A DNA stretch of 64,000 nucleotides, taken from assembly GCF_016287535.1 (NCBI RefSeq), contig NZ_JAEFAJ010000001.1, positions 124,001 to 188,000 of the forward strand, read 5' to 3'. Position numbers and translations under genes: made by a program. This document shows, piece by piece, positions 12,094 through 36,100 of the stretch; position 1 is the stretch's first letter; the number at the start of each line of letters is the position of its first letter. Source of the stretch: Ruminococcus sp. (GTDB lineage Bacteria > Bacillota > Clostridia > Oscillospirales > Ruminococcaceae). The notes under the pieces are model-generated. The model did not search any database. It was not told where the DNA came from and worked only from the letters and a program-made list of their open reading frames with translations.

Positions 12094-15000
12094 TTATCCG
12101 CTTACAGAGTTCTGGGAATATATCCTTAGTATGGCAGAAGCATCAACTGCGTCGATAATACCATTGTCATCGAGATCAGCATATATGCGTTTATCCTCAG
12201 GTATAACAGGAGCACCTTCTGTGGAAACAGCAGAATAATGACTTAATACGATGGATGCATCTACCGCATCAATAAAACCGTCACCATTCACGTCACCCTT
12301 TGTAATCCCATGCAATGGAGGAATATATAACGATCCTGATGCGAAATCAGTATTTGTCGCAGCAAATCGTATATAACATCCTTTGGAATTATCAATTATC
12401 TTGCCTGCTTTAAAGTCATTTCCCGCCATTTTCATGACCTGATCTTCGCTGATACCGTGCCTGCCGGTCATGAGCTCCATAAACCTGTCCATGCTGTAGC
12501 CATATGTTTCGACAAGAGAATCAAGTATCATCTGAGGAAGATATCCTTCATATGTTACTTCACACACACCATCACCATCGTATATGTATTTCCCGTTTTC
12601 GTATGGAAGAATAAATGTCGGATCAGGCTTGTCCGTAGGTGCCTGAGGAATATTGTAATTCACAGCTTCACTCTCGAATTTTCCATCACCGCCGCTTACT
12701 CTGAGAGTAAAGCTCTCACCCGGAATAATACTTAGATAATACTTTCCAAGCGAGTCAGGATCTACGTCCTCTCCCTGAATAAGCCTCTTTTCAGCTGAAA
12801 CATATCCGGATTCATTTTCGCTATCAAAAGCTATTTCAAGTTTTAATGCTGTATCTTTTTCCAACGGACCAAGGGCTTCACTTTTATAATTGATCGTCAG
12901 CTCTGATACATCGTAGCGTTCAGGCACCTGAACAGGAACTTCCTTGCCGTCCTTTAACGCAGTCAGTTTCTGACCGGCATAAGGCAGAACACTGTCACCT
13001 TCTTTCAGCTTAATACCTTCCGAGGTAAATATTTCATCCGCCCATGAATTGGCAATGACAGCTTTTCTGTCATCGAAGGCTATGAGAGATCTGTTTACAT
13101 GGAGCGTAACTTCATTATCAAGTACATTTTCGCCTGAAAGCTCCATAACGATATCTGTTGCGCCAAATTCGACAGGGATCTCCTTTATCCATTCTCCGCC
13201 CTTATATTCATTGTTTTCTTTTTTTACATTATATATAGTACCAAGGCAAAGGGATATCCCTTCTGCTCCTGACGGTATATCGAGACTGTATTCACTTGCT
13301 GAAATCCGTTCGGCATACCGCAGTCCGTCTACAGTCCGATAATTTGCCGGAATATAGCCTATCCAGTTGAATTCCGCCTTTTTGGGATAAAAGCTGCGCC
13401 GGGTATCTGTATCTCCGTTCACAGCATGAACTATCACATCGGAAACGATCTTTAAAGGCTCCTTATACTGAGTCAGTTCATCATCGCCAAAACTGTACGA
13501 GATACCATCGGATATGCTTCCATATGACAAAGCCACCTTTTCATTTAACGACACAGCTCCGGAATGATGAGAAAAATACACCTTTCCGACAGGATCGGCA
13601 TATACTTTTAACGTCAGATTGCCAAGATGTATTTTAAGATCGCCTTTGGAGAAAATCTCCTTGTATTTTTTTTCGATGTCTGCCGCTTTTTCAAGCAGTT
13701 CTATATCTTCATCTTCAAGTCCGTCATACTGTTGTTCTATGAACGACTCAAGAAGTATCTGCTTTTCTTCATCACTGTAAATTACATTTTCGTCTGTAAC
13801 GTCTTTCCATTCTTTGCCGTTTGTACTGTAGAAGCTCTGATTTTTGCCTGTGTATTCCTTTATCTTGCTGTCTGTTGCGTACGGACTCAGGTCATAAAGC
13901 TTTTCTGCTCCATCAATATACAAACTGCTTTCGATAGGTATAACAAATGGCGAATCTTCACAATAAAGCCTTAAAACAACAGAAAACTTTTCATTTTTAT
14001 TTATTATTACCGGCTCGGACAAGTCAAGAGTAAAAAAACCAGTAAGTTCACAGCTGCCCTTTGTAACTGCAGAGGGATTTCCCGATACAGGATCGGTTTC
14101 ATCCTTGAGGTCTGTATATACGGTTATCTCATATTCAGTTCCGGAGTTGTAAATGTACGTTCCGACCGAGCTTATCTGTGCGTTTTCATCTGCGGTGAAT
14201 ATATCTGCCATATACGAAGGACCACTCTCATCAGCGCTGTCATATGCTGAAAGCGTCTGTATTGGAATAAAACTGTCATATTGATATATCTTTTCGTGCT
14301 CATCAGCATCTTCGATCTCAAATACTGCGAAATCTTCAAGAGTTCTGTCATAATATGATATCCATATGTATCCATCCAAGCCGTCACGTGTGCTCCAGCT
14401 GTTCTTACAAAGCCACGCTCCGTCTCCTTCGGGAGAATTACAGAAATAACGTGCGGAAAAGTTGTCATCCCAGCCAACTATTGTAACAGCATGATTGGCA
14501 AAACGCGGTTTCCTTTTGGAATTGGATGTATAATAATCCGGGTTCCAGTTCTTGACTTTATCAGACATATAAGAAACATCTACGGCGTGTCCGCTGTACA
14601 CAAACTCTTTGACTAATCCGTTTATCGCATCAAAGTTCTCTCTTTCACTGTCAAAATCAAAGGAATATGCATTTTTCAGATGATAATCAGCCTGATGCTG
14701 CATACGATCAACATCAGAGGGATTGTCAAAGAACCTGAAATCCGAATATTTAAGTCTGTTTTCATTTACAGGTCCGATCCACTGTGACCAGAGATTTGAT
14801 ATCATCTTCGAGTTTCCGCCTTCTCCAAGCACATCTTCAGGCTTTTTTGAGTCTGTATAGAGCTGGTCGTATCCGTAATATGTATAATAGGCGGAATGAA
14901 GTTCGGAGAGGTCGATATACGGCACTTCCGAAAGCAGGCTTGATTCTGCGCTTGCTATAGCGGCATGAGCCCAGCAGCTTCCATAAGACCCCTGGGATTT

Positions 15001-33163: not shown

Positions 33164-34603
33164 TTATCTTTCAAAAGGATATTTCTGACTTTCAGAATTT
33201 GACTTCTGTTCCTGCAGAGTAACTTTTATTTTAATATCCTGCCCGTTTCTTGATACTGTTATGGAAACAGTATCCCCTGCTTTGAATTGATTCTTGATCT
33301 CGTTGTACTCCTGAGCAGAAGAAACCGCATTTCCTTCAATATCGATTATAACATCTCCGACTTTTATACCGGCTCGGTCAGCAGCTCCGTCCTCCTGAAT
33401 TGACATAATGAATACACCAACTGGTATATTCCAGTAACGCGACTGAGCTTCGGTAATATCCCTTGTACTTATTATACCATCCTGCGGTCTTCCGGTGACG
33501 TACCTGTAATTTATAAGATCATCGATTATAACTTTAGCTTCTTTTATAGGTATAGCAAAGCACAAGCCTTCAATGCTTGCTGAAGTATAACTGTAACTCG
33601 AAGACATTTTTGCAGAATTTATGCCAATGACCTGACCGCAGCTGTTGAGCAGCGGACCGCCTGAGTTACCATTGTTTATTGCAGCATCTGTCTGTATAAG
33701 GTTCATCTTCTTTTCGTTGATATCGATCTTTCTGTTAAGTGCAGAAACGATTCCACTTGTAACCGTTCCGAAAAGATCAAAACCAAGAGGATTTCCCACC
33801 GCTATAACCAGCTCTCCTACCCTAAGTTCATCACTGTCGCCAAGAACTGCAGGTTTAAGCTTTGTCTCGTTCACCTTTAAGACGGCAATGTCCGTTTCAG
33901 TGTCGAATGCTATAATATCCGCTTCGTGTTCTGTTTCATCGCTGAAAAGAACATTGACTTCAACAGCCTCACCATCATATTCTTCATCATAAACAACATG
34001 GGAATTAGTTACAATATAACCATCATCGGTAATTATAAAACCTGTGCCGGTATTCCTTACTTTCTGAATCTGAGGCTCTGAACTCCAACCCCATATGCTG
34101 AAAGTTGATTTGGGTTCATATTCAAATGTTGAAGCAACTCCAACAACTGACGGCATAATAGAATCAACAATATCAGGAATAGGTTTCGCATCATCTCTCG
34201 AAGCAAGCTCAATAAGACTCGGCAAATCCTTTTCGGCAGAACTTGTTTTTTGCTCGCCTGTATTCCTTGAAATATTTCTTGATGTATCACTTGTATACTC
34301 TATAAGTTCGTTCTTGGAATCCTTTAAAAACTTCGAGATCTGTACACCGCCAGCAATAAGAATCCCGGAAGCAAGAACAACAACTGCAAATCTAAAAGCA
34401 AATCCAAGTTTGCTGAGTTTTTTTGTTTTGCCGGAATTTTCTGACGTAAATGCAACGGAACTCTGACTGGAATGCGACTCATTATCATAAATACTCTCTG
34501 AATCATAATTATCATCTTCTGAATTATAAGAATGGGTACTTTCATTGCTGTCGGAAACTTCATCAGAGAGATAAATATCATCATTGTTGTTATTATCCGT
34601 CAT
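33164..34603 (-). CDS. htrA: HtrA/DegP-like membrane-anchored serine protease with PDZ domain
   Basis: 479 residues from the ATG at 34603, with AAAGG 9 bases upstream (an ATG at 34612 abuts that site). An Asn/Asp/Ser-rich cytoplasmic N-terminus of about 60 residues, one membrane helix (about 68-90), then the trypsin-like domain with VTNSHVVYD (His), FDTETDIAVLKV (Asp) and INNGNSGGPLLN (Ser), and one PDZ domain (GVFIMSIQEDGAADRAGIKVGDVIIDIEG). Envelope quality-control protease acting outside the membrane. A -10-like TATAAT is visible upstream (about 34642-34647) but without a good -35. Confidence 0.93.
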   Translation of the reverse strand: MTDNNNNDDIYLSDEVSDSNESTHSYNSEDDNYDSESIYDNESHSSQSSVAFTSENSGKTKKLSKLGFAFRFAVVVLASGILIAGGVQISKFLKDSKNELIEYTSDTSRNISRNTGEQKTSSAEKDLPSLIELASRDDAKPIPDIVDSIMPSVVGVASTFEYEPKSTFSIWGWSSEPQIQKVRNTGTGFIITDDGYIVTNSHVVYDEEYDGEAVEVNVLFSDETEHEADIIAFDTETDIAVLKVNETKLKPAVLGDSDELRVGELVIAVGNPLGFDLFGTVTSGIVSALNRKIDINEKKMNLIQTDAAINNGNSGGPLLNSCGQVIGINSAKMSSSYSYTSASIEGLCFAIPIKEAKVIIDDLINYRYVTGRPQDGIISTRDITEAQSRYWNIPVGVFIMSIQEDGAADRAGIKVGDVIIDIEGNAVSSAQEYNEIKNQFKAGDTVSITVSRNGQDIKIKVTLQEQKSNSESQKYPFER

Positions 34604-34715
34604 TCCATTCATCCTTTCTGATATAATTCACTATCTTATATTATACGCATTTTTGTGATAATTATATGATAATGCAGGGAAAAATACTGATTTCGGCAAA
34701 TTATATCTTTAACTG

Positions 34716-35327
34716 AAACAAAACCCCGGCATAAAGCCGGGGCTATTATTATTCAATTTTAAAGCGACTTTCATCACTTAGCTAAATTACCCTTTGGACT
34801 CACCCTTTCGGATCAGATTTTTAATGTGTACCTCTTTTTCACTGTACATCATTCCTTTATTTCAGTAATAAAGCAATCTTATTTTTTCTCCATCGGAATC
34901 ACCTATAAAATTGTATTTATCCGGCCTTATGCCGAACATAATGCAAGTTCATAAAGCAATAACCTATTTTCTCATTGGACTCAACCTCTACTAAGAAATT
35001 TTTCGCAATATATCTAAAGACTTATTGTCGAAATTTCAGATAACTCTGTATCTAAATTACTACATGAAGCCGTTTAGATTAGCAAAACGTCAGCGTCATA
35101 ATTGAATTGTTAAGCCTTTTTGAGCCTGTATCAATGGAACAAGCTTACGCCTATATTCCCGTTTTATGAAATCCAATTACTCAGCAAGCCCGCCGGCTTC
35201 ACGCTGCTGTGCGAACTTTCCTTCCATTGGACTCACACTCCCTTCCGCGTATATTCATTTACATTGAGGTCACCCTCAGTCCAAGTAAATGCAGCTCGGA
35301 TCACTCAATTGAGCTTTCCTTTTCCTT
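34716..35327 (-). ncRNA. Candidate large structured non-coding RNA, about 610 nt
   Basis: Between htrA and the DUF1292 gene lie over 900 bases with no sizeable ORF on either strand. On the minus strand a promoter (35334-35362) and a strong terminator (34724-34742) bracket about 610 bases. The transcript can fold into many local hairpins: CATTTAC/GTAAATG enclosing GAGG-GTGA-CCTC (about 35253-35289), CAGC/GCTG with AAGCC-GGCG-GGCTT inside, AGGC-GTAA-GCTT with a GNRA loop, ATCTAAA/TTTAGAT, AGATA/TATCT, GAAATTTCG/CGAAAAATTTC with CAATA/TATTG inside, and CTTTATT/AATAAAG. A GTGAGTCCAATGG-like element occurs at about 35223-35236, 34971-34984, 34888-34902 and 34791-34803, and one complementary TTGGACT lies at 35278-35284. 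Size and ornateness recall the ROOL/OLE class, but I cannot assign a family. Confidence 0.6.
34724..34742 (-). terminator. Terminator of the large ncRNA
   Basis: GCCCCGGC-TTTAT-GCCGGGG on the minus strand (34743-34724) followed by TTTTGTTT; a strong GC-rich intrinsic terminator with no protein gene ending before it. Confidence 0.88.
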
Positions 35328-35333
35328 GATTAT

Positions 35334-35362
35334 ATATTACCATACTCTGTGTAAAATGTCAA
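35334..35362 (-). promoter_or_regulatory. Promoter of the large ncRNA
   Basis: TTGACA (35362-35357), 17-base spacer, TAATAT (35339-35334) on the minus strand, predicting a start near 35327. The 110 bases beyond it (35363-35471) contain nothing I can name. Confidence 0.75.
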
Positions 35363-35471
35363 TAGAAATTTAGGATTCTCAGCGACTTTTTAGTGCAAAT
35401 CAGCACAAACAACAAAGAATGGCCCTATCAATTGGAGAAATTCACTACAATGTTATTACTTAATCTTCCTC

Positions 35472-35500
35472 TTGATTTTTATTTTGATTTAGTGTATAAT
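35472..35500 (+). promoter_or_regulatory. Promoter of the DUF1292 gene
   Basis: TTGATT (35472-35477), 17-base spacer, TATAAT (35495-35500), about 39 bases before the chosen start. Confidence 0.75.
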
Positions 35501-35538
35501 ATAAATATAAAAGGCGTATGCCGGATAGGAGAATGACT

Positions 35539-35901: not shown

Positions 35902-36100
35902 AGAAAAGAAAAATTTCTGCCTTGTTCGGGTAATTATAGTTTTTATAATCCAACACATAATTCAAGGGAATTCGACTCCGTATGTGGACTGCAGACCTCC
36001 CGCCCTGCGGAAGAAGGGAGCGAGAAGCATAAGGGCGTTTACCCACCTGCTTAGTGCGGGTTTTATGCACTATATGACGGCAAGGCGGATTTTTATACTC
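35902..36100 (+). ncRNA. ssrS: Candidate 6S RNA
   Basis: The roughly 300-base gap between the DUF1292 gene and the V-ATPase operon has a promoter and a terminator but no gene. The transcript has a 9-bp closing stem TCTGCCTTG (35916-35924) with CAAGGCGGA (36081-36089, one G-U pair), then TATAGT/ACTATA, a largely open middle with a small ACCC/GGGT hairpin on the 3' side, and an apical region with CGCCCT/AGGGCG or CTCCC/GGGAG pairing. Size of about 180-200 nt and the rod-with-central-bubble outline fit 6S RNA, which binds sigma-A RNA polymerase in stationary phase. Assignment rests on shape, not on a family search; another small RNA is possible. Confidence 0.5.

Follow-up and report, generated by a model that had tools for sequence, protein, structure and literature searches.

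What does a bacterial RNA do when it has its own promoter and terminator, a short element repeated along its length, and no long open reading frame (ORF)? A segment of this kind was predicted on the minus strand of a 64,000-nucleotide stretch of Ruminococcus DNA (here called the window), and it was originally read as an ornate structured RNA in which one segment can pair with several equivalent repeats.

Promoter, terminator, and neighboring genes

As originally predicted, the segment is bracketed on the minus strand by a sigma-70-type promoter (TTGACA-17-TAATAT with TG ahead of the −10 element; 35362-35334) and an intrinsic terminator (predicted stem, 34744-34722), which together enclose about 610 nt. 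Taken together, these two elements predict a transcript at 35326-34716, which would begin about 7 nt past the −10 element and end in the terminator tail. The promoter is conserved in 15 aligned loci, and its profile retrieves homologues. The −35/−10 spacer has the consensus ACAAAAAGTGTGG (window 35364-35330 together with the promoter alignment) with A/T-rich sequence ahead, and in many loci it contains an imperfect inverted repeat, CACA..TGTG, at which a regulator may bind. The original prediction saw no ORF of useful size; the transcript strand lacks any ORF of 50 amino acids, and mechanical ORFs of 69 and 54 amino acids lie on the opposite strand. What the transcript strand of the segment does carry is four tiny ORFs with Shine-Dalgarno-like sequences. 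We conclude that the promoter and terminator support the segment being a standalone transcription unit.

Outside the RNA, a 6S RNA gene lies nearby on the plus strand (35911-36095; Rfam RF00013, 70.1 bits), with a plus-strand DUF1292 gene between it and the promoter, and 11 of the 18 named records that were scanned had a 6S gene. Downstream, about 100 nt away and on the same strand, is a gene for a trypsin/PDZ protease, an arrangement in which the RNA could be that gene's leader or attenuator. We consider this very improbable, as a terminator lies between the two and as the downstream genes appear to differ among the loci inspected (by eye in raw sequence, with no search).

Homologues and their distribution

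By DNA search, matching sequence turned up in 18 of 197 family genomes, with the window's own genome counted. A sequence-only profile built from the promoter region common to several homologous loci matched at 45 bits or more in 93 of 396 sampled family genomes (counted by hand, own genome included); the E-values of this profile are inflated, and some match was found in 354 of 396 family genomes and 270 of 295 order genomes, most of these matches being weak and the weak ones mostly untrustworthy. From 106 promoter loci, 96 RNAs were analyzed, 72 of which were non-redundant. Seven of the 106 loci were removed by hand: L061 (promoter not found), L056 and L085 (contig ends), L062 (apparently protein-coding and without an element, the profile match lying ahead of apparent protein genes), and L065, L067, and L069 (downstream element absent). 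L040, L053, and L115 were also left out, as they had no predicted terminator. Keeping the four element-free loci outside the statistics favors the element counts, not the frame or ORF-length tests. Judged by predicted terminators, the homologous RNAs are about 0.3 to 1.7 kb long.

Arrays of the element also occur in further families of the order, namely, f7 (L057) and, in shorter form, f24 (L066); in f4 (L056), one element-like site is followed by the contig end. One genome contains two promoter-profile matches 2 kb apart (G288:C11:12902-12991 and 14898-14989; 44.8 and 41.5 bits), which are perhaps two tandem arrays. Ruminococcus flavefaciens L130, L148, L159, and L173 combine the promoter pattern with at least two GANTCCnATG sites, and in R. 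albus 8 the available stretch ends 187 nt from the promoter. A scan of named records matched at least 117, at least 63 of them with two or more GANTCCnATG sites within 1.5 kb; the remaining records, few of which were inspected, are shortened, divergent, or chance matches. Promoter-pattern matches in Catenibacillus (L183) and in a member of the Mycoplasmatota (L204) had no downstream elements. A two-element pattern gave three matches in 391 class genomes, two of them arrays and the third (G713) inside an open frame of 236 codons; the pattern overlooks most known arrays, the window's included, and thus says little about range. Viral copies were also sought, and 7 of at least 120 pattern-matched viral stretches cluster three or more GAGTCCRATG; all seven clusters lie within open frames of 108 to 801 codons and are therefore probably coding repeats. 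GAGTCCRATG is not enriched in the window's own genome, with 8 matches (two in the array locus) against 10 for a reversed control. We conclude that the RNA gene is conserved in Ruminococcus and its relatives and is apparently vertically inherited.

The repeated element as a predicted translation start

All four GUGAGUCCAAUGG-like elements of the original prediction were located on the minus strand. Element 1, GTGAGTCCAATGG (35236-35224), comprises the spacer and the start of ORF1, which has 16 codons (MEGKFAQQREAGGLAE; 35227-35177) and is kept in eight of eight genus-level RNAs. Element 2, TTGAGTCCAATGA (34984-34972), opens into ORF2, AUG-AGA-AAA-UAG (MRK; 34975-34964), and element 3, GTGATTCCGATGG (34902-34890), opens into ORF3, AUG-GAG-AAA-AAA-UAA (MEKK; 34893-34879). 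Element 4, GTGAGTCCAAAGG (34803-34791), is Shine-Dalgarno-like without an AUG, here called a D-type site. Ahead of it lies a B-type ORF of nine codons with a GUG start (KKRYTLKI following the start; 34842-34813), the GUG being in the loop of a hairpin formed by UGUAC (34848-34844) and GUACA (34831-34827). Across the whole window, the element pattern with up to three mismatches is not above chance (12 found, 12.4 expected). Among the homologous RNAs, GAGTCC recurs far above chance (203 copies, 11.1 expected) and is present in 65 of the 72 non-redundant RNAs, and the ORF1 element often reads GCGAGTCC (39 copies, spread over 39 of the 72 RNAs).

In the 96 RNAs, AUGs with an upstream Shine-Dalgarno sequence numbered 718, compared with 226 ± 12 in 20 dinucleotide shuffles, and the aligned spacing between the two was maximal at 6 to 8 nt. 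The ORFs that follow these AUGs were one codon long in 28 cases, two codons in 170, and three codons in 72; lengths of four, five, and six codons occurred 12 to 13 times each, and lengths of 10 to 12 codons occurred 146 times. ORF lengths after AUGs without a Shine-Dalgarno sequence were distributed about flat in the same 96 RNAs. At SD..TCCnATG sites of the 72 non-redundant RNAs, a stop within three codons was found in frame at 137 of 243 sites, and at 47 and 35 sites when the other two frames are read; for comparison, 123 of 759 AUGs without a Shine-Dalgarno sequence reach a stop within three codons. Two-codon ORFs make up 79 of the 243 sites, with a second codon that varies (Ala, Arg, Tyr, Lys, and others) and with three interchanging stop codons (TAA 33, TGA 27, TAG 19), and five of the sites are AUG-stop. 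A set of 136 sites drawn with GANTCCNATG, ORF1 sites included, gave the same trend more weakly (57 versus 36 and 20). The dependence on frame and the interchange of stops argue that the sites are selected by translation and not by RNA pairing. We conclude that the repeated element can be predicted to serve as a translation start, composed of a Shine-Dalgarno sequence, a conserved spacer ending in UCCR, an AUG, and a tiny ORF.

Start-less sites, which retain the Shine-Dalgarno sequence and UCCR, are also frequent. The triplet after GTGA[GT]TCCN in the 96 RNAs was ATG in 91 cases, GTG in 5, and a non-start triplet in 138 (AAG, AAA, ACA, CCN, GCA, or similar, with T in the middle in only 1 of 138). 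A permissive rule, applied with no control for chance, places 101 of the 138 start-less sites 3 to 22 nt after a short B-type ORF. In the ORF1 element, the triplet ahead of AGTCC is often GCG, so a start there would be AUG and not GUG. A general outer stem at D-type sites, pairing UGAA with UUYAG, was considered and set aside as weak (−4.61 within RNAs versus −4.24 ± 0.17 when swapped). TGAATAT is present in 31 of the 72 RNAs, with 43 copies in all where 9.4 would be expected; it ends B-type ORFs and is also found outside ORFs near the 3′ end (e.g., in L012 and L017).

The high conservation of GAGUCC, and its occurrence without an AUG as well, could indicate a sponge or target for a trans-acting sRNA or protein that recognizes GGAGUGAGUCC, with the elements titrating the regulator. 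A partner of this kind might be sought in R. bromii, where the promoter stands beside 6S without an array: a short RNA (about 130 nt, terminated; L135:2985-3130), which has the same promoter type and adjoins 6S, contains UUUGGAUCACUCC, a sequence that resembles the 3′ end of 16S rRNA and is near-complementary to the array element. Searches of 247 family genomes with the R. bromii RNA returned matches from 15, all of them short and weak. Moreover, one exact pattern revealed no complementary sRNA in 16 array genomes, exact TYGGAMTCACTCC being confined to positions opposite array elements apart from a single occurrence in an apparent coding region. A sponge would also leave unexplained the in-frame stops two or three codons past the AUG, and we regard it as quite unlikely.

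Spacer conservation and possible pairing with 16S rRNA

Ahead of ORFs of one to three codons, the spacer has CC at −3/−2 in 90 to 92%, T at −4 in 80%, and a purine at −1 in 92% (A 61, G 31, C 6, T 0). Column by column, its conservation exceeds that of the Shine-Dalgarno sequence, whose distance varies. In L057 and L044, some elements read GGAGGTACGGTCCAATG or AGGTACAGTCCAATG, with the middle altered and the Shine-Dalgarno sequence and UCCA kept. The 3′ end of 16S rRNA, as read in two family genomes, is GGCUGGAUCACCUCCUUUCU, and AGGAG-N4-UCCR is collinear with the complement of 16S UGGA-UCAC-CUCCU. At 212 sites selected for TCC, the 16S duplex had an energy of −14.3 kcal/mol, compared with −12.2 ± 0.15 kcal/mol when the spacer was shuffled; at these TCC-selected sites the gain was smaller with a longer 16S tail (−14.4 versus −13.1 ± 0.2) and slight with the anti-Shine-Dalgarno sequence alone (−10.0 versus −9.6 ± 0.08). 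The self-fold of the element at the same TCC-selected sites was −2.2, versus −1.2 after the spacer was shuffled. Because shuffling the spacer also weakens the self-fold, UCCR may have a different role, and it may form a small hairpin inside the element. Our preferred reading is that UCCR would take part in an extended two-part pairing with 16S rRNA.

Conserved structure of the RNA

Eight genus-level RNAs, the window's included, were aligned at full length, and the RNAalifold consensus contained 84 pairs, 19 of them with a compensatory change. In ten chosen helices comprising 67 pairs, 92.7% of cells pair and 18 of the 67 pairs changed on both sides, with 0 of 500 shuffles as high and with 2 to 5 in slid versions; the 67 pairs were chosen from the 84 after the table had been seen, and the same alignment served for structure and counts, both of which favor the result. 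A long-range helix domain (35201-35065), for which pair counts were made with controls, comprises helices 35201-35194/35072-35065, 35193-35184/35094-35087, and 35180-35172/35106-35098 and an inner hairpin at 35159-35136, and seven of the nine pairs of helix 35180-35172/35106-35098 changed on both sides. RNAalifold and pair counts also gave a second helical element (35064-35011), made up of 35064-35057/35018-35011, a hairpin at 35048-35037, and 35029-35027/35021-35019, as well as a hairpin downstream of the D-type site, AAGUGAU-GAAA-GUCGCUU (34779-34762). Arms of the hairpins at B-type starts match better within an RNA than when swapped (7.09 versus 6.07 ± 0.19; 0 of 300; 96 modules), in a control that ignores relatedness, some of the 96 modules being related and their anchoring imperfect. 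Compensatory changes in homologues, for which the original prediction had called, are thus present, and we conclude that they support a conserved RNA structure.

Size and covarying structure are also what a purely noncoding ornate RNA like ROOL or OLE would display, the Shine-Dalgarno, AUG, and stop patterns then being incidental. The array RNA resembles ROOL, GOLLD, and OLE in size, in conserved structure, and in the absence of a long ORF, but it differs in having arrays of translation starts with in-frame stops. The conserved structure and the repeats of the original ornate-RNA reading stand; its purely noncoding character is not supported, since the repeats resemble translation starts, and the original opposition between stem covariation and coding conservation gives way to covariation and a translation signature together, with peptide conservation not evident. 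The original failure to match the segment to a known ornate RNA was upheld: at gathering scores, an Rfam scan of the window matched only 6S (35911-36095, plus strand), and not ROOL, GOLLD, OLE, raiA, tmRNA, or RNase P, and in a permissive scan of 34600-35520, each of the 14 matches fell short of its gathering score. In 18 related records (not all of them array-bearing, L135 having no array and L139 just 187 nt), the 14 matches at gathering scores were to 6S, tRNA, and T-box, and none was within the array stretch. With the stops specific to one frame and all three stop codons interchanging, we find it hard to believe that the RNA is purely noncoding.

ORF1, its pairing partner, and its predicted peptide

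The ORF1 element (GNGAGUC) is complementary to GRCUCGC about 30 to 50 nt downstream, inside the 3′ part of ORF1, in many homologues and across genera; in the window, GGGCUUGC (35191-35184) is the partner of GUGAGUCC of element 1 (35236-35229). Such an ORF1 element is present in 47 of the 72 non-redundant RNAs and missing from 25, and a helix covering GAGUC was found in 39 of the 47 and was absent from 8. The mean pairing score of 52 first elements was 8.23, compared with 5.47 ± 0.39 when flanks were shuffled; a swap control was weak (8.83 versus 8.62 ± 0.08, largest swap 8.88) because the arms of the hairpin are nearly invariant. Compensated pairs occur in L127, L128, L074, and L084; in L105, a member of the genus, the partner is gone. 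Local partners were also sought for elements other than that of ORF1 and gave no clear excess over shuffled downstream flanks (5.26 versus 4.83 ± 0.39 and 5.55 versus 5.10 ± 0.25). UUGGACU (35284-35278), which had been proposed as the single segment that pairs with the repeats, is present but not conserved in that role: its ACU part is changed in four of eight genus-level RNAs with no restoring change in the first element (AGUCC in three, GGUCC in L100), and its 3′ flank joins a local hairpin instead (35278-35274 with 35269-35265). The proposal survives in altered form, with GGGCUUGC as the segment able to pair with an element of this kind. As GGGCUUGC is also used by the long-range domain, the two folds are mutually exclusive, and we infer that translation of ORF1 may drive a switch between them.

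ORF1 would encode 16 amino acids in six of the genus-level RNAs and 18 and 19 in the others, and its 6 extra bases in L054 preserve the frame. The presence of ORF1 throughout the genus-level RNAs, and the many B-type peptides that terminate in ..LNI or similar, might be taken to indicate a polycistronic mRNA for micropeptides (ORF1 and B-type products of 7 to 15 amino acids), with two-codon ORFs as spacers or coupling devices. The LNI ending, however, coincides with the recurring TGAATAT, which is found outside ORFs too, and the 79 two-codon sites specify only two residues, the second varied. Moreover, ORF1 codons 3 to 6 differ in nearly every genus member while the paired part is mostly kept (eight RNAs, by eye), and GGCTCG is read in different ORF1 frames from genome to genome, such that the RNA rather than the peptide seems to be conserved. 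We think that the ORF1 peptide is not the product that matters, and we regard a micropeptide mRNA as unlikely.

Comparison with known systems

In a lambda bar minigene, a Shine-Dalgarno sequence precedes an AUG, a single sense codon, and a stop. The 79 two-codon ORFs among the 243 SD..TCCnATG sites have this form. Reference titles in PMC8012679 link lambda bar minigenes with two-codon ORFs to inhibition of protein synthesis. The nearest ORFs in the window are MRK and MEKK, of three and four codons, and, unlike the minigenes, the array would combine several such ORFs, start-less sites, and the longer ORF1 in one conserved structured chromosomal RNA. We know of no toxicity of the array RNA. Dual-function sRNAs and multi-peptide RNAs such as PSM-alpha carry several short Shine-Dalgarno ORFs per RNA, as the array RNA does too; the ORFs of the array are mostly of two or three codons, however, and its ORF1 is largely unconserved beyond the part paired in the RNA. 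A literature search produced no description that we recognized as such an RNA, and novelty is only as strong as that search. We rate a conserved structured RNA with several predicted two-codon ORFs and start-less sites as a new architecture.

Discussion

The best reading of these sequence features, to which we would give an even chance, is that the RNA works on ribosomes through near-abortive initiations. The strong-looking promoter would yield an RNA whose 5′ region is folded and whose several ribosome-binding sites would mostly open into ORFs of 2 to 3 or 10 to 12 codons, in addition to the longer ORF1, and start-less Shine-Dalgarno sites would accompany the tiny ORFs on the same molecule. 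Ribosomes would initiate at the tiny ORFs and terminate almost immediately; by such initiation and prompt termination the RNA would engage ribosomes, and perhaps also initiator tRNA and termination and recycling factors. Its function would then lie in the act of initiation: the RNA could buffer or sequester free ribosomes, or it could sense their free number by way of the ORF1 switch. It would act in trans on the translation apparatus and not via peptides or on a downstream gene.

6S RNA is abundant and occupies a central machine, RNA polymerase. It is possible, and we suggest it tentatively, that the array RNA is a dedicated ribosome-engaging RNA and a translational counterpart of 6S, in which the sites hold or count free 30S or 70S particles and ORF1 is a translation-driven switch between two folds. 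The likeness to 6S is one of proposed logic only, together with the 6S gene being a frequent neighbor (11 of 18 records); the array RNA is a separate gene and would address ribosomes. The adjoining 6S gene is a suggestive parallel, no more.

If translated as predicted, the array RNA would be, to our knowledge, the first conserved chromosomal RNA built on near-abortive translation initiation. Were this true, two-codon ORFs would be under selection throughout a bacterial family, and RNAs that sequester or sense ribosomes would become testable. The array also urges caution, in that large RNAs of these bacteria may be other than conventionally noncoding even when they lack long ORFs.
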